Positions 14,037 through 54,684 of a stretch of 64,000 bases of DNA are shown here, in pieces. Each line of letters begins with the position of its first letter. The first letter of the stretch is position 1. The DNA comes from Albidovulum inexpectatum. GTDB taxonomy: Bacteria > Pseudomonadota > Alphaproteobacteria > Rhodobacterales > Rhodobacteraceae. The stretch spans positions 186,001 to 250,000 of the forward strand of contig NZ_PRDS01000003.1 in assembly GCF_002927635.1 (NCBI RefSeq), written 5' to 3'. The notes under the pieces were generated by a model, which was not told where the DNA came from, searched no databases, and worked only from the letters and a program-made list of their open reading frames with translations. Position numbers and translations under genes: made by a program.

Positions 14037-15173
14037 ATGACGGTCTCTATGCAGATTCCAGGCGGCGCGGCACTGCCTGCCTGGCTTCCCAAGAACGCTC
14101 GTCTCTATCTGCGCCATATCGAGGAAGGCCTGTCGCTGCGCGCGATCGCGCGGGACGAGGGCTGCCATGCCTCGACGATCATGCGCAAGGTTCGCGCGTT
14201 CGAAAACCGTCGTGACGATCCGCTGGTGGACGAGGCGCTGACGCGGCTTGGCCGACTGGTGTTCGGTTCCGGTGCCACTGTCGTTCAGACCCAATCCCAG
14301 ACCGAGGAAGGAGCCTGCCCCATGACCGCACCCATCCGCCACGCAAGCCCGAAGATCGTCGATCAGGCCACCCTGGAACGCGAGGCCCGCCGCATCCTGC
14401 GCCGCCTGTGCGAATTCGGCGCGGTTCTGGCCGTTGCCGGAGAACTGGACAAGGCGGCGGTGTTGAAGGGAACCGTTCGCACCGCCGTGGTGGATCGCGA
14501 GGTCGCCGAGGCCTTTGCCCTGAAGGACTGGATCGCGGTCAAGTCGGTGGGGCGGGTGACGACCTACCAGATCACGCAGGCTGGCCGCGCCGCGCTCAAG
14601 CGCCTGCTTGCCGAGGAGCAGGCCGCGCGCAACGCCGGCCTTGGAGATGCCGCCAACCCCTTTGCCGACCAGCATCGCGACGTCGAGGATCACGAGCTGA
14701 CCGACGACCAGACGGGCCAGCCGCGTCGCGTGCGGATCAACCTGTCGGAAAGCCCGCTGGCCATCCTTGCCCGGCGCAAGGACAAGGATGGCCGTCCTTT
14801 CCTGTCGCCCGATCTTGTCGCCGCGGGCGAACGTCTGCGCGAGGATTTCGAACTGGCCCAGATCGGACCGCGCGTTGCGCAGAACTGGGATCGGTTCCTG
14901 ACGGCCGGCGACCGCGGAAGCTTTGGTTCCGCGGATGCGCTGGGCGGGTCGTCGCGTGCGCGCGACCGTGTTGCCGCCGCCCTGCGCGATCTGGGGCCTG
15001 GCCTGGGCGATGTCGTGCTGCGCTGCTGCTGTTTCCTCGAAGGGCTGGAGGCCGTGGAAAAACGCATGGGCTGGTCGGCGCGCTCGGGCAAGATCGTCTT
15101 GCGCATTGCGCTGCAGCGGCTCAAGCGGCACTACGAGGAAACCTATGGCTGCCAATCTCCACTGATTGGCTGA
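14037..15173 (+). CDS. DUF6456 domain protein with N-terminal helix-turn-helix
   Basis: A 378-residue protein. Residues 15-60 read LPKNARLYLRHIEEGLSLRAIARDEGCHASTIMRKVRAFENRRDDP, a helix-turn-helix like those of sigma-factor region 4 or resolvase DNA-binding domains (shown here as separate parts: LSLRAIARDEGCHASTIMRK is the core). The middle has a winged-helix-like stretch, and the C-terminal 140 residues match the Rhodobacterales DUF6456 domain, including an unusual CCCF. It is probably a DNA-binding regulator conserved in the order, with unknown targets. The upstream inverted repeats suggest autoregulation. The ATG at 14037 is 34 bases after those repeats. The family name is from memory. 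Confidence 0.7.
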   Translation: MTVSMQIPGGAALPAWLPKNARLYLRHIEEGLSLRAIARDEGCHASTIMRKVRAFENRRDDPLVDEALTRLGRLVFGSGATVVQTQSQTEEGACPMTAPIRHASPKIVDQATLEREARRILRRLCEFGAVLAVAGELDKAAVLKGTVRTAVVDREVAEAFALKDWIAVKSVGRVTTYQITQAGRAALKRLLAEEQAARNAGLGDAANPFADQHRDVEDHELTDDQTGQPRRVRINLSESPLAILARRKDKDGRPFLSPDLVAAGERLREDFELAQIGPRVAQNWDRFLTAGDRGSFGSADALGGSSRARDRVAAALRDLGPGLGDVVLRCCCFLEGLEAVEKRMGWSARSGKIVLRIALQRLKRHYEETYGCQSPLIG

Positions 15174-50476: not shown

Positions 50477-51739
50477 ATGAGGCGAGTTGTCGTAACGGGG
50501 CTTGGAATGGTCACTCCCTTGGCCTGCGGGGTCGAGGAAACCTGGAAGCGGCTGATTGCCGGGCAATCCGGCGCGGGGCCGATAACCCGGTTCGACGCCT
50601 CGAATGTCGTGACCAAGTATGCCTGCGAGATTCCCTTTGGTGACGGGTCGGACGGAACCTTCAACCCGGACGACTGGATGGAGCCGAAGGAGCGGCGCAA
50701 GGTCGATGACTTCATCCTGTATGGTCTTGCGGCGGCCGAACAGGCGGTTCGCGATGCGGGCTGGATGCCAGAGGACGAGGAAAGCCGCCTGCGGACCGGC
50801 GTGATGATCGGATCGGGGATCGGGGGGCTGAGCTCGATCGCGGAGACGGCCAACCTGATCAAGGACCGTGGTCCGAAGCGGGTTTCGCCCTTCTTCATTC
50901 CTGGCTCGTTGATCAACCTTGTTTCGGGGCAGGTCAGCATTCGCTATGGCTTCAAGGGGCCGAACCATGCGGTGGTGACGGCCTGTTCGACCGGAGCGCA
51001 TGCGATTGGCGATGCCGCGCGCCTGATCCAGTGGGGTGATGCGGATGTGATGATCGCCGGCGGGGCAGAGAACCCGATCTCGGAAATCGGAATCGCGGGG
51101 TTCAATGCCTGCAAGGCGCTGTCCACCAAGCGTGCCGATGAGCCCCAGAAGGCAAGCCGGCCCTATGACGCGGATCGCGACGGATTCGTGATGGGCGAGG
51201 GCGCGGGTGTCGTGGTGCTGGAGGAATACGAGCACGCCAGGGCGCGCGGCGCGAAGATCTATGCCGAGGTTCTGGGCTATGGCCTTTCGGGCGATGCCTA
51301 TCACATCACCGCGCCGAGCGAGGATGGGGATGGGGCCTATCGCTGCATGCAGGCCGCCCTGAAGCGGGCGGGGTTGACGCCCGACCGGATCGACTATGTC
51401 AACGCGCATGGCACGAGCACCATGGCCGATGTGATCGAACTGGCCGCCGTCGAGCGTTTGCTGGGCGAGGCTGCGGGCAAGGTGACGATGTCGTCGACCA
51501 AGTCGTCGATCGGACATCTGCTGGGCGCGGCCGGCGCGGTCGAGGCGATCTTCTGCGTGCTGGCCATTCGTGACCAGATTGCGCCGCCGACGATCAACCT
51601 GGACAATCCGGCGGTCGAGACACCGATCGATCTTGCGCCGAACAAGGCGGTGAAGCGTGAGATCAACGTGGCGCTGTCGAACTCGTTCGGCTTTGGTGGC
51701 ACGAATGCGTCGCTGATTCTGGGTCGGGTGGACGCGTGA
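50477..51739 (+). CDS. fabF: 3-oxoacyl-ACP synthase II
   Basis: Condensing enzyme of fatty-acid elongation. The 420-residue protein has MRRVVVTGLGMVTPLACGVE, the active-site cysteine near 170 in AVVTACSTGAHAIGDAARLI, and the two histidines in YVNAHGTSTMADVIEL and SSIGHLLGAAGAVEAIF. The start at 50477 is the first family-like one; the open frame extends 600 bases upstream antisense to the PilZ gene and is not coding there. Its stop overlaps the mltG start region. Confidence 0.97.
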   Translation: MRRVVVTGLGMVTPLACGVEETWKRLIAGQSGAGPITRFDASNVVTKYACEIPFGDGSDGTFNPDDWMEPKERRKVDDFILYGLAAAEQAVRDAGWMPEDEESRLRTGVMIGSGIGGLSSIAETANLIKDRGPKRVSPFFIPGSLINLVSGQVSIRYGFKGPNHAVVTACSTGAHAIGDAARLIQWGDADVMIAGGAENPISEIGIAGFNACKALSTKRADEPQKASRPYDADRDGFVMGEGAGVVVLEEYEHARARGAKIYAEVLGYGLSGDAYHITAPSEDGDGAYRCMQAALKRAGLTPDRIDYVNAHGTSTMADVIELAAVERLLGEAAGKVTMSSTKSSIGHLLGAAGAVEAIFCVLAIRDQIAPPTINLDNPAVETPIDLAPNKAVKREINVALSNSFGFGGTNASLILGRVDA

Positions 51740-52893
51740 TGTGGCGCAATATCGCCTCGGGCTTTCTGACGGTTGCGATCGTGCTGCTGCTGGGGATTGC
51801 GGGCCTCGTGGCCTGGGCTCAGAAGCAGTATGAAGGCCCGGGGCCGCTGGCCGAGGCGATCTGTCTGCGCGTTCCGGCCGGGTCGAACTTTCGCAAGATC
51901 GCGGCGGACCTGGCCGAGCGCGGGGCGATATCGAGCGAGTTCATCTTTCGCGTCGGCGCCGACTATGCCGGAAAGACGGCTGGGCTGAAGGCTGGTTCGT
52001 TCCGGATCGAAGAACATGCGTCCATGGCCGAGATCGTCGACGCGATCACCGGGACCGGGGTTTCGACCTGTGGCGCGGAGGTCAATCTGCGCATCGGTGT
52101 GAACGGGACGGATATCCTGTTGCGTGAGCTGGAACCTGCCGAAAATCGCTATGTCGAAGTTGCGCGGTTCGATCCGGCGACCGAAGAGGCACCCGCCGAA
52201 TATGTCGCGGGGATGGAAGATCCCGGTCTTCGCTTTCGCGTGACGATGGCCGAAGGTGTCACGAGCTGGCAGGTGGTCGAGGCGCTGAAGCGGGCGGACT
52301 TCCTGAGTGGCGAGGTGGAAGAGGTTCCCGACGAGGGATGGCTTGCGCCCCATAGCTATGAGGTCGAACGGGGCGAGGAGCGCAGCGCCCTGCTGCAGCG
52401 GATGCGGCAGCGGCAGGAGACGATCCTGGCGGAGGCCTGGGCCGCGCGGGCAGATGGTTTGCCCTATGAGACGCCGGAAGAGGCGTTGATCATGGCCTCG
52501 ATCGTGGAGAAGGAAACCGGCGTGCCCGAGGAGCGGCGGATTGTCGCGAGCGTATTCGTCAATCGGCTGCGCAAGGGCATGAAGCTGCAGACCGACCCGA
52601 CGGTGATCTATGGGATCACCAAGGGCAAGGGCGTGCTGGGGCGCGGGCTGCGGCAGAGCGAGCTGCGGGCGCGCACGCCTTACAATACCTATGTGATCGA
52701 GGGCTTGCCGCCGACGCCGATTGCCAATCCCGGCCGTGAAAGCATCGAGGCGGCGCTGAACCCGGCGGAGACGGATTACCTGTATTTCGTTGCCGATGGG
52801 ACGGGCGGACATGCCTTCGCCGAAACCCTGGCCGAACACAACCGCAATGTTGCGCGCTGGCGCGCGATCGAGGCGGAGAGGGCAGGGCAGTGA
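51739..52893 (+). CDS. mltG: Endolytic transglycosylase MltG
   Basis: Inner-membrane enzyme that cuts newly made glycan strands and sets their length. The 384-residue protein has one N-terminal membrane helix (residues 4-26), a LysM-like region (RVPAGSNFRKIAADLAERGA) and the YceG/MltG catalytic domain, with ALIMASIVEKETGVPEERRI containing the catalytic glutamate, KLQTDPTVIYGITKGKG and YNTYVIEGLPPTPIANPGRE. The ATG at 51739 shares bases with the fabF stop (TGATG); a GTG at 51736 is an alternative. It is the last host gene before the GTA cluster. Confidence 0.95.
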   Translation: MWRNIASGFLTVAIVLLLGIAGLVAWAQKQYEGPGPLAEAICLRVPAGSNFRKIAADLAERGAISSEFIFRVGADYAGKTAGLKAGSFRIEEHASMAEIVDAITGTGVSTCGAEVNLRIGVNGTDILLRELEPAENRYVEVARFDPATEEAPAEYVAGMEDPGLRFRVTMAEGVTSWQVVEALKRADFLSGEVEEVPDEGWLAPHSYEVERGEERSALLQRMRQRQETILAEAWAARADGLPYETPEEALIMASIVEKETGVPEERRIVASVFVNRLRKGMKLQTDPTVIYGITKGKGVLGRGLRQSELRARTPYNTYVIEGLPPTPIANPGRESIEAALNPAETDYLYFVADGTGGHAFAETLAEHNRNVARWRAIEAERAGQ

Positions 52894-52897
52894 AGTG

Positions 52898-52969
52898 ACG
52901 AACGGTTCGTTAACACACTGATAACACTATTTTTCTTGACTTTCCGAACGGTCGGAGATATACGTTCGG
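52898..52969. repeat. CGAACGGT repeats around the GTA promoter
   Basis: ACGAAC-G-GTTCGT at 52898-52910 is a near-perfect dyad. CCGAACGGTCGG occurs at 52944-52955, inside the promoter spacer, and CGTTCGG at 52963-52969 completes a 7-base inverted repeat with CCGAACG. The shared core CGAACGGT at 52899 and 52945 is spaced 46 bases. It is a candidate operator array for the GTA activator. Confidence 0.5.
52936..52964 (+). promoter_or_regulatory. GTA cluster promoter
   Basis: TTGACT at 52936-52941, a 17-base spacer and TATACG at 52959-52964 make one of the best sigma70-type promoters in the window. The start site would be near 52971. It lies between mltG and GTA gene g1, in an AT-rich patch. Confidence 0.65.
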
Positions 52970-52989
52970 GCAAGCTGGAAGAAGTGGGC

Positions 52990-53028
52990 AAGCGGCCCCG
53001 GGAGCGATCCCGGAGCCGCTTTTTCGTT
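52990..53028 (+). terminator. Leader terminator between the GTA promoter and g1
   Basis: Arms AAGCGGC-C-CCGGGA (52990-53003) and TCCCGG-A-GCCGCTT (53008-53021), with a GCGA tetraloop and one C-A mismatch, are followed by TTTCGTTTC. It lies about 20 bases after the predicted transcription start and 40 bases before g1. It could serve as the mltG terminator, as a leader attenuator, or both. Confidence 0.75.
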
Positions 53029-53066
53029 TCTCTCGTACGGACGGGCAGGAGAGGCGGTGCAACCGG

Positions 53067-53393
53067 ATGATCAGGCGCGTTTCGGAGCGGGATATCTGCC
53101 AAAGCCCCGAGGTCGTGGAGGTTCAGAAGCTGTTCGATGAAACCGTGGGCGCGCTGCGCCTGTCGCTGGAGCGGTTGAGGTCGGGCGAGCTGGGCGATGT
53201 CAGGGAGATTGGCCGGCAGGTGGGTGATCTGCGAACGGCTTACAAGCTGATTTTGGAAGAGAGGGTGCGCGTTGCAAAACTTCGCAAGGACGAGGAGGGC
53301 ATCGTCTATGACTATGCCCTCGACCTGGAGGCGGCGCGAGATGAGGTCTGCCGCCGGCTGGCTTGCCTGCGCGACGCAGGATGTGGTGGATGA
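53067..53393 (+). CDS. GTA g1, small terminase subunit
   Basis: A 108-residue helical protein (MIRRVSERDICQSPEVVEVQ and onward), which by position and size corresponds to RcGTA gp1, the small terminase TerS. The middle, FDETVGALRLSLERLRSGEL, is charged and helical. In RcGTA this protein has a weak DNA-binding role, consistent with random packaging instead of pac- or cos-specific cutting. The ATG at 53067 has AGGAGAGG 12 bases before it. Its end overlaps the g2 start by 53 bases. The role rests on synteny and size, as the sequence itself is not distinctive. Confidence 0.8.
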   Translation: MIRRVSERDICQSPEVVEVQKLFDETVGALRLSLERLRSGELGDVREIGRQVGDLRTAYKLILEERVRVAKLRKDEEGIVYDYALDLEAARDEVCRRLACLRDAGCGG

Positions 53394-54684
53394 GTTTCTG
53401 GGCGGGTTGAGCGACGGGGCGCTGATGGCGTTGCCGTGGCTGTTCGAGTTCTGGGCGCTGCCGCACCAGCTGCCGCCCGAGGGGGGCTGGAAGACCTGGG
53501 TCATCATGGGCGGGCGGGGCGCGGGCAAGACGCGGGCAGGGGCCGAGTGGGTGCGCGCGCAGGTCGAGGGCGCCGCGCCGATGGACCCGGGCGTGGCGCG
53601 GCGGGTGGCCTTGGTGGGGGAGACCCTGGAGCAGGTCGAGAAGGTCATGATCTTTGGCCAGAGCGGGATCATGGCCTGCAGCCCGCCCGACCGGCGCCCG
53701 GTCTGGGAGGCGGGCAAGCGGCGGCTGGTCTGGCCGAATGGCGCGGTGGCCGAGGTCTATTCGGCGCATAGTCCCGAGGGGTTGCGGGGGCCGCAATTCG
53801 ATGCGGCCTGGGCCGATGAGCTGGCCAAGTGGCCGAAGGCGCATGAAGCCTGGGACATGCTGCAGTTTGCGCTGCGACTGGGAACCGATCCAAGGCAGGT
53901 GGTGACGACGACGCCGCGCAATGTCGGCGTGTTGAAGGCGATCCTGAACAATCCGTCGACCGTGGTGACGCAGGCACCGACCGAGGCGAACAGGGCCTAT
54001 CTGGCGGAATCGTTCCTGGAGGAGGTGCGGGCGCGCTATGGCGGAACGCGGATCGGGCGGCAGGAGCTGGACGGTGTGTTGCTGGAGGATGTCGAAGGCG
54101 CGCTGTGGACGACCGAGATTCTGGAGAAGTGCCGCTCGGCGGCACCCGAGCGGCTGAGCCGGGTCGTCGTGGCAATCGATCCGCCGACCAGCGGGCACGA
54201 GGCGTCGGATGAATGCGGGATCGTCGTGGTCGGGGCGCTGACCGAAGGGGCGCCGTCGGAGTGGCGGGCGTGGGTCCTGGAGGATGCCTCGGTCCAGGGG
54301 GCGCGGCCCGATGGCTGGGCGCGCGCGGCGATTGCGGCGATGGAACGGCATGGGGCCGATCGGCTGGTCGCCGAGGTGAACCAGGGAGGGCAGATGGTCG
54401 AGGCCGTGATCCGGCAAATCGATCCCGTGGTTCCGTTTCGTGCGGTGCATGCAAGTCGGGGCAAGGCCGCGCGCGCCGAGCCGGTCGCGGCGCTGTATGA
54501 ACAGGGGCGAGTCCATCACCTGCGGGGGCTGCATCTGCTGGAGGAGCAGATGTGCCGGATGAGCCGGCAGGGCTATCAGGGCCGGGGCTCGCCCGACAGG
54601 GTGGACGCGCTGGTCTGGGCGCTGACGGAGCTGATTGTCGAGCCCGCAGCGCGGTGGCGCCGGCCGCGGGTCAGGCCGCTCTAG
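53341..54684 (+). CDS. GTA g2, large terminase subunit
   Basis: Motor ATPase and nuclease that packages host DNA into GTA heads. The 447-residue protein has Walker A VIMGGRGAGKTRAGAEW (GGRGAGKT at about 57-64), the Walker B-like DAAWADELAKW, and a C-terminal RNase H-like nuclease region starting VVVAIDPPTSGHEASDECGI. The ATG at 53341 lies inside the g1 end. A longer frame from 53272 is possible, but its extra residues are arginine-rich and not terminase-like. It is followed by the portal gene after 57 bases. Confidence 0.92.
   Translation: MRSAAGWLACATQDVVDEFLGGLSDGALMALPWLFEFWALPHQLPPEGGWKTWVIMGGRGAGKTRAGAEWVRAQVEGAAPMDPGVARRVALVGETLEQVEKVMIFGQSGIMACSPPDRRPVWEAGKRRLVWPNGAVAEVYSAHSPEGLRGPQFDAAWADELAKWPKAHEAWDMLQFALRLGTDPRQVVTTTPRNVGVLKAILNNPSTVVTQAPTEANRAYLAESFLEEVRARYGGTRIGRQELDGVLLEDVEGALWTTEILEKCRSAAPERLSRVVVAIDPPTSGHEASDECGIVVVGALTEGAPSEWRAWVLEDASVQGARPDGWARAAIAAMERHGADRLVAEVNQGGQMVEAVIRQIDPVVPFRAVHASRGKAARAEPVAALYEQGRVHHLRGLHLLEEQMCRMSRQGYQGRGSPDRVDALVWALTELIVEPAARWRRPRVRPL

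Follow-up and report, generated by a model that had tools for sequence, protein, structure and literature searches.

The window analysed here, a stretch of 64,000 nucleotides from an Albidovulum inexpectatum contig, carries a Rhodobacteraceae-type gene transfer agent (GTA) cluster, and in the leader ahead of its first gene, g1, a promoter is followed at once by a hairpin with the structure of an intrinsic terminator. The unit recurs across the family, and we consider the leader to be probably an antitermination switch of the GTA operon, with GafA, the direct activator of the cluster, carrying RNA polymerase through the terminator. That polymerase reads through the hairpin, and that it is GafA which overcomes termination there, we infer.

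The leader spans 173 bp between mltG (51736-52893) and g1 (53067), behind which g2 and then the portal gene follow; all features lie on the forward strand. In agreement with a preliminary description of this DNA, which had reported TTGACT-N17-TATACG followed by a terminator, direct reading confirmed a -35 element, TTGACT (52936-52941), and a -10 element, TATACG (52959-52964), separated by a 17-nt spacer. Within the conserved spacer lies the element CGAACGGTC (52945-52953; consensus CGnnCGgTC), a candidate GafA loading element, which forms part of an inverted repeat, TCCGA-ACGG-TCGGA (52943-52956). Judged by the position of the -10 element, transcription is likely to start at 52971 +/- 2. An initial transcribed element, GCTGGAAGAAGTGGGC (52974-52989; consensus GCtRGaAGAaRTGGGC), which is conserved in alignments of 59 and 75 leaders, then leads into the predicted terminator hairpin (52990-53021), AAGCGGC-C-CCGGGA-GCGA-TCCCGG-A-GCCGCTT, with a folding energy of ca. 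-25 kcal/mol. It is followed by a T tract (TTTTT, 53020-53024) and a conserved C(A/G)TTTC, together covering 53020-53030. The stem of 13 pairs, the GCGA loop and the T tail described earlier are all present, while one internal C-A mismatch had gone unmentioned. The fold of the region 52960-53075 has a z of -3.3, and none of 200 shuffles was equally stable.

Conservation of the promoter and the hairpin

Leaders of relatives were gathered by three routes. A terminase search was positive for 263 of the 295 genomes of the family, and the terminase-picked set consists of 110 of these loci: 30 that came with the search result, among them that of the window, and 80 taken from the further matches listed. 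A first leader profile was made from 19 leaders that a word pattern had picked out of the first 30 loci, and these 19 are counted within the 110; the profile matches 99 of the 110 loci, and a larger later search with the same cut-off 98. The named set comprises the best 80 of 509 loci matched by the Rhodobacter capsulatus capsid protein, and 75 of these, including two R. capsulatus strains, have the leader. In the other five the available DNA starts at most 2.1 kb from the capsid gene, and as the leader is located ca. 4 kb upstream of that gene, we take the DNA to be too short to include it. Another 19 loci (L112-L130) were chosen through a match to an RNA model built from 59 leaders, and the leader is therefore present in them by construction. 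Altogether, 192 leaders were found in 209 loci, 183 of them distinct. The preliminary description had held that a hairpin confined to close strains would speak against its proposal; with 99 of 110 terminase-picked and 75 of 80 named loci, conservation reaches far beyond these. The RNA model matches 189 of the 295 family genomes, in one place each except G215 (two), and two of 290 genomes of the class, which both belong to the family of the window; these large searches were run with stricter filters that lose weak matches. In the genome of A. inexpectatum a DNA search, the RNA model and the promoter pattern each give one place only; the single occurrence of the pattern, TTGAC-N4-CGnnCGnYC-N5-TA, agrees with GafZ, the GafA homologue of Caulobacter, having one target.

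Across the 192 leaders, TTGAC is kept in 187 and the 17-nt spacing in 188. A profile anchored on the -35 element shows 1.2-1.8 bits at C9, G10, C13, G14 and T16 of the spacer, and among the 183 distinct leaders CGnnCGnTC is found in 108, CGnnCG in 152 and GCGnnCGnT in 87. The spacer is conserved beyond what the promoter needs. The initial transcribed element contains GCTAGAAGAA, GCTGGAAGAA or GCTAGGAGAA in 111 of the 183. Given this conservation across relatives, the putative unit of promoter and terminator is more than a product of chance. The 8-mer GGGCAAGC, which had been pointed out as a direct repeat, is present at both 52968 and 52986; only 6 of the 183 leaders carry it twice, and we regard the repeat as incidental.

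The hairpin itself was evaluated with a folding detector, which requires a hairpin of -10 kcal/mol or lower abutting a T run. A terminator was detected in 174 of the 183 distinct leaders (median -22.6 kcal/mol), compared with 82 of 549 dinucleotide shuffles and 5 of 296 coding windows of the same loci. Divided by set, it was present in 93 of 98 terminase-picked, 62 of 66 named and all 19 RNA-model-picked leaders. A gapless detector found it in 149 of the 183 leaders and in 17 of 915 shuffles. The spacing is kept as well, the T run beginning 49-57 nt past the -10 element in 170 of the 173 leaders that have a run of four T (183 examined).

Two sets of leaders were analysed for compensatory changes. 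The first, of 59 leaders (60 listed, one dropped), on which the RNA model was also built, was drawn from the 89 of 107 leaders in which TTGA and a 17-nt spacer are accompanied by a hairpin of no fewer than 8 pairs, a choice that favours pairing. Here, the ten core pairs contain 49 cells changed on both sides, compared with 12.6 in shuffles, and none of 500 shuffles reached this count; nine of the ten pairs covary, and 92% of the cells are paired, versus 41-63% in slid controls. The second set, the 75 named leaders, was not selected for pairing, the structure being written from one of its members. Among its 11 pairs, 39 cells carry changes on both sides, whereas shuffles give 13.6 +/- 2.8 and none of 500 reaches 39; 88% of the cells are paired, versus 47-64% in slid controls. 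Covariation in eight of the 11 pairs of this set supplies the compensatory stem changes that the preliminary description had proposed to look for. The leader thus has a G+C-rich stem-loop and a U tract, and its stem has been kept by compensatory changes, as expected of an intrinsic terminator. By structure and covariation we assign the hairpin as a terminator, which would presumably be efficient in vivo.

The pairing potential of the region could also indicate an RNA-based attenuator, i.e. a riboswitch, a leader peptide or an alternative helix, which senses a signal without GafA. In favour of such a device, the stem is extendable by pairing of GAARUG with CAUUUC, and a second hairpin, CTCTCGTACGGACGGGCAGGAGAG (53030-53053; predicted fold ca. 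-12.9 kcal/mol), precedes g1. The extension covaries little, however: in the 59 leaders chosen with a hairpin, both sides changed in 3 of its 6 pairs, with 190 of 500 shuffles as high; its cells are paired to 89.3%, compared with 87.5%, and 7 of 500 shuffles reach that value. An in-register ATG is present in only 109 of the 183 leaders, and the open reading frames (ORFs) have lengths of 4 to 124 codons; as no short ORF over the hairpin is conserved, a leader peptide was rejected. No Rfam family was matched at gathering score in three loci, the best weak match in the window's stretch being Cyano-2 with 16 bits at a cut-off of 40. Of the two mechanisms that had been suggested for this leader, antitermination or a leader RNA, the first fits best, with readthrough as its inferred step, while a purely RNA-based switch finds no support and is in our view very improbable. 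A pairing between CAUGC of the initial element and GCAUG of the second hairpin was dropped after inspection by eye, leaders with CAAGC keeping GCATG. Both arms of the second hairpin, CTCGTGC and GCATGAG, are found in 99 of the 183 distinct leaders; in some relatives the arms vary, as in L149 (CGAAC..GTTCG), and this hairpin is perhaps for g1 translation.

Association of the leader with the GTA cluster

The first gene past the leader, g1 (53067-53393, ATG at 53067), is named as the GTA small terminase by position and relatives; its product has no Pfam match, and a scan of genome contigs with g1 found no relative. The large terminase, g2 (53272-54684 as the longest ORF, start codon unsettled), has matches to PF03237 and PF17289. 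Upstream, mltG (PF02618, YceG) is encoded on the same strand and ends 96 bp before the hairpin, so that the hairpin could simply terminate mltG while the GTA transcripts start elsewhere, an alternative already raised in the preliminary description. This alternative fails on the comparison of relatives. Upstream DNA of 1 kb or more is available for 142 leaders; mltG lies within ca. 350 nt in 107 of them and farther away in 11, and the available DNA of the other 24 lacks it, leaving 35 without an mltG nearby. Among the 263 genomes in which a terminase was matched, 185 hold the leader, compared with just 4 of the other 32 (Fisher P = 2.5e-10, related genomes taken as independent), and the published start in R. 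capsulatus lies upstream of the hairpin, which, if it holds, refutes the alternative for that species. We rejected the mltG terminator, which we hold to be hardly credible, since mltG is not always nearby and the presence of the leader tracks the GTA terminase. The leader unit goes with g1 and not with mltG.

The pattern is also found outside the genome collection. A 21-base leader pattern occurs in 38 viral contigs of IMG/VR (L235-L272), 37 of which have a GTA terminase behind it, and for the remaining record the available DNA ends 241 bases past the pattern. These contigs have the look of bacterial GTA clusters that were classed as viral, not of phages.

For comparison with other alphaproteobacterial families, ca. 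640 nt upstream of g2 were evaluated in 18 GTA loci (twenty, less two that had no g2 match). The folding detector found a T-tailed hairpin of -10 kcal/mol or lower in 8 of the 18 and of -15 or lower in 5, compared with 174 and 172 of 183, respectively, for the 95-nt leaders of the window's family; the gapless detector, which differs from the one behind the count of 174, found one in 1 of 18. A leader terminator thus does not appear to be the rule in these families. Two loci from other families of the class, L229 and L222, have TTGACC, a GCG-rich stretch downstream and, ahead of the first GTA gene, a hairpin with a T tail, although the -10 element of L222 is poor; from these, the promoter-terminator layout may be older than the family.

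Ten loci from 10 genera (L115, L116, L119-L125 and L127; ca. 2.8-5.3 kb, oriented with the leader start near 2501) have lost the part of the cluster from g2 to a late GTA gene, which we take to be g15. All ten share the same joint, after LRGPQFDAAWxDE in g2 and with xGCAAxDKGTNQPN on the side of the late gene. An in-frame fusion ORF of the two genes follows the leader, in eight cases with 827-904 amino acids from stop to stop; in L120 it is interrupted and in L125 it is cut by the contig end. In a g2 tree with 156 tips, 12 changes are needed to account for 14 remnant alleles (the ten and four others). Either the deletion has recurred, or the deletion allele is small enough to spread inside GTA particles.

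GafA and passage through the hairpin

The candidate antiterminator, GafA, is encoded in the window at 14037-15173 and has a C-terminal DUF6456 domain (PF20057), while N-terminal helix-turn-helix matches fall under their cut-offs. The GafA domain family is found in 269 of the 295 family genomes; among 14 control genomes, the DUF6456 model has a match in Caulobacter only. With the terminase score allowed for, leader and GafA scores correlate with a partial Spearman coefficient of 0.49 in 109 genomes (110 sampled, less one that had no match), a value without phylogenetic correction. GafA matches are weaker in the 11 genomes whose leader score is below 15, with a median exponent of 52, versus 62 in the other 98. 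As the tips are not independent, we consider this correlation support, not proof.

A more direct connection comes from published binding data on R. capsulatus (the papers cited here and below are drawn on in part). Out of five probes GafA bound only one, a 50-bp fragment (76-125 bp upstream of g1) containing the -10 element and the start, the latter confirmed by RNA-seq coverage (PMC6363796). The C-terminal domain of GafA binds the 50-bp fragment, and the N-terminal domain binds specifically the probes on both sides (PMC9638019). In R. capsulatus SP108 (L133), which we used as a stand-in for SB1003, assuming the two to be alike, the stretch 76-125 bp upstream of g1 contains the spacer, the -10 element, the start and the initial element and ends one base into the hairpin AAGCGCAACGGGAAACCGTTTGCGCTTTTTTC; the g1 start used for this strain gives an ORF of 324 bases, matching the published length of g1 in R. 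capsulatus (PMC6854486). The published GafA fragment hence coincides with the conserved leader. Binding has been shown for the 50-bp fragment, within which the spacer element is the candidate site.

Taken together, the leader has a sigma-70 promoter with a putative terminator between start and first gene, and the genome encodes a homologue of an antiterminator. In the mechanism that we favour, sigma-70 RNA polymerase would start near 52971 and, without help, halt at the hairpin, releasing an RNA of ca. 55 nt. GafA would attach to the conserved spacer element, and probably also to the bases transcribed first, and would load onto the polymerase, which could then pass the leader terminator and proceed to g1 and the remaining cluster. 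It would act much as AlpA, lambda Q and Caulobacter GafZ do. A -35 element that is near consensus here and degenerate in Caulobacter would make control after initiation sensible.

Several observations weigh against this mechanism or against the leader elements themselves. Nine of the 183 distinct leaders lack a terminator according to the detector, and two, L183 and L210, also show no U-tailed hairpin by eye. The larger search left 12 of the 110 terminase-picked loci without a leader match at its cut-off; within 300 nt upstream of g2, some T-tailed hairpin is present in nine of these and absent from three. Simple consensus scanners called neither promoter nor terminator in the leader of the window, which we attribute to the requirement of the promoter scanner for a T at the last -10 position and to the mismatch that interrupts the stem. 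A T at this position (-7) is found in 12 of the 183 distinct leaders, and in several alphaproteobacteria more than 60% of sigma-70 promoters have no T there (PMC8407463). Of the four genomes that hold the leader without a terminase match (G108, G141, G181 and G203), the region behind it was inspected in G181, G141 and G203. In G181 the contig ends soon past a partial g1 match, and in G141 and G203 (loci L112 and L113) the 6 kb that follow the leader gave no match to a GTA gene; the latter two look like deletion remnants. Both retain promoter, initial element, hairpin and the GafA domain family. Lambda Q needs a sigma-dependent, -10-like pause element just past the start. Pause-like words are present in part of the 183 leaders, GCTAGAAGAA in 52 and GCTGGAAGAA in 30, with TAGAAG in some and TGGAAG in others, and a pause element of this type is thus not convincingly conserved. 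Finally, GafA has been described as recruiting RNA polymerase via omega at initiation (PMC9638019), and such recruitment could suffice.

The last point bears on a reading in which the hairpin is an insulator only, trimming read-through from upstream and basal firing, while GafA acts purely at initiation and a strongly activated promoter leaks through. The binding of GafA to omega, its description as a recruiter (PMC9638019) and the presence of mltG, in 107 of 142 loci, as the co-oriented neighbour directly upstream are consistent with it, and so is the finding that loss of GafZ lowers a Caulobacter reporter ca. fourfold even without the terminator, terGTA (PMC11150451). An insulator would, however, be expected upstream of the GTA promoter rather than 20 nt past its start at a spacing that has been kept, and GafZ, the homologue of GafA, is a demonstrated antiterminator (PMC11150451). 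We therefore consider an insulator without antitermination rather unlikely.

The strong conservation of the stretch before the hairpin and the persistence of the leader in L112 and L113, where no GTA genes were matched behind it, might instead point to a small RNA gene, whose terminated transcript of ca. 55 nt acts in trans and behind which the GTA cluster lies by accident. The conserved stretch sits inside the published GafA-bound DNA, however, and the leader is tied to the cluster by its distribution over genomes with and without a terminase match. It matched no Rfam family. The known alphaproteobacterial anti-Shine-Dalgarno seeds are CU-rich, and the purine-rich stretch of the leader is unlike them, which also counts against this possibility; a small RNA gene is in our estimate quite improbable.

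If GafA carries polymerase through the terminator, the tight silence of a lethal operon despite a near-consensus -35 element would be explained. As a tentative extension, GTA expression in Rhodobacteraceae may be switched on and off mainly during elongation: the promoter might fire in most cells and yield a discarded 55-nt RNA, with only those cells that contain enough GafA making the long lytic GTA transcript. An AlpA-like GafA would then load at one site per genome, and the restriction of GTA production to few cells would have its physical switch in the leader.

Comparison with known systems

The question of whether GafA, the activator of the archetypal GTA, acts as an antiterminator has been raised in print (PMC11150451). 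A literature search, with supplements and subscription papers outside it, found no leader terminator described for Rhodobacteraceae GTAs, and the words terminator, hairpin and leader are absent from the main texts of PMC6363796 and PMC9638019. These papers deal with the same operon and activator, but describe control at initiation. What is new here is the leader terminator before g1, resembling those of lambda pR' and AlpA, together with its elements and its conservation across the family; GTA antitermination itself is already known. The preliminary description, which spoke of a new layer in GTA control, was too strong in this respect, antitermination having been shown for the Caulobacter GTA and suggested, as a so far unrecognised activity, for GafA by the authors of the GafZ study (PMC11150451). 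A paper titled with antitermination of the Bartonella GTA also appears among the references of PMC13236601. With a conserved terminator at the edge of the GafA-bound DNA, antitermination by GafA becomes directly testable.

Lambda Q at pR'/tR' shares the combination of a promoter and a terminator that is passed by a promoter-loaded antiterminator on the way to late genes, although its pause element is not clearly conserved in the leaders. In arrangement, the leader resembles that of alpBCDE in Pseudomonas aeruginosa, where the element of AlpA, GGGACGN5GGTA, is located between -35 and -10, an intrinsic terminator lies between the start and the first gene, alpB, and a lysis programme is run in a subset of cells (PMC7969949). 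The terminator there starts at +54, here at ca. +20.

The activator is related to GafZ of Caulobacter, which binds between -35 and -10, travels with the elongating polymerase and passes terminators (PMC11150451). The two systems have in common the homology with the C-terminal part of GafA, an element between -35 and -10, palindromic in Caulobacter and a candidate here, and a GTA operon that is read, here presumably, only when terminators are passed. The GafZ element, GCGCCCG-CTGGCGC (PMC11150451), has a left half, GCGCCCG, that the family spacer consensus resembles and that is found as such in L007. They differ in the terminator, which in Caulobacter consists of three 150-bp repeats past the first gene, whereas here a single hairpin is located 20 nt past the start and before g1. 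They also differ in the promoter: the Caulobacter -35 element, AATCAT, is degenerate and activation requires GafY and IHF, in contrast to TTGACT here, and a near-consensus -35 element made the Caulobacter promoter active regardless of GafYZ, if ca. sixfold weaker (PMC11150451). If GafA indeed carries polymerase through the leader terminator, the control of GTA expression would be unified between Rhodobacteraceae and Caulobacter.
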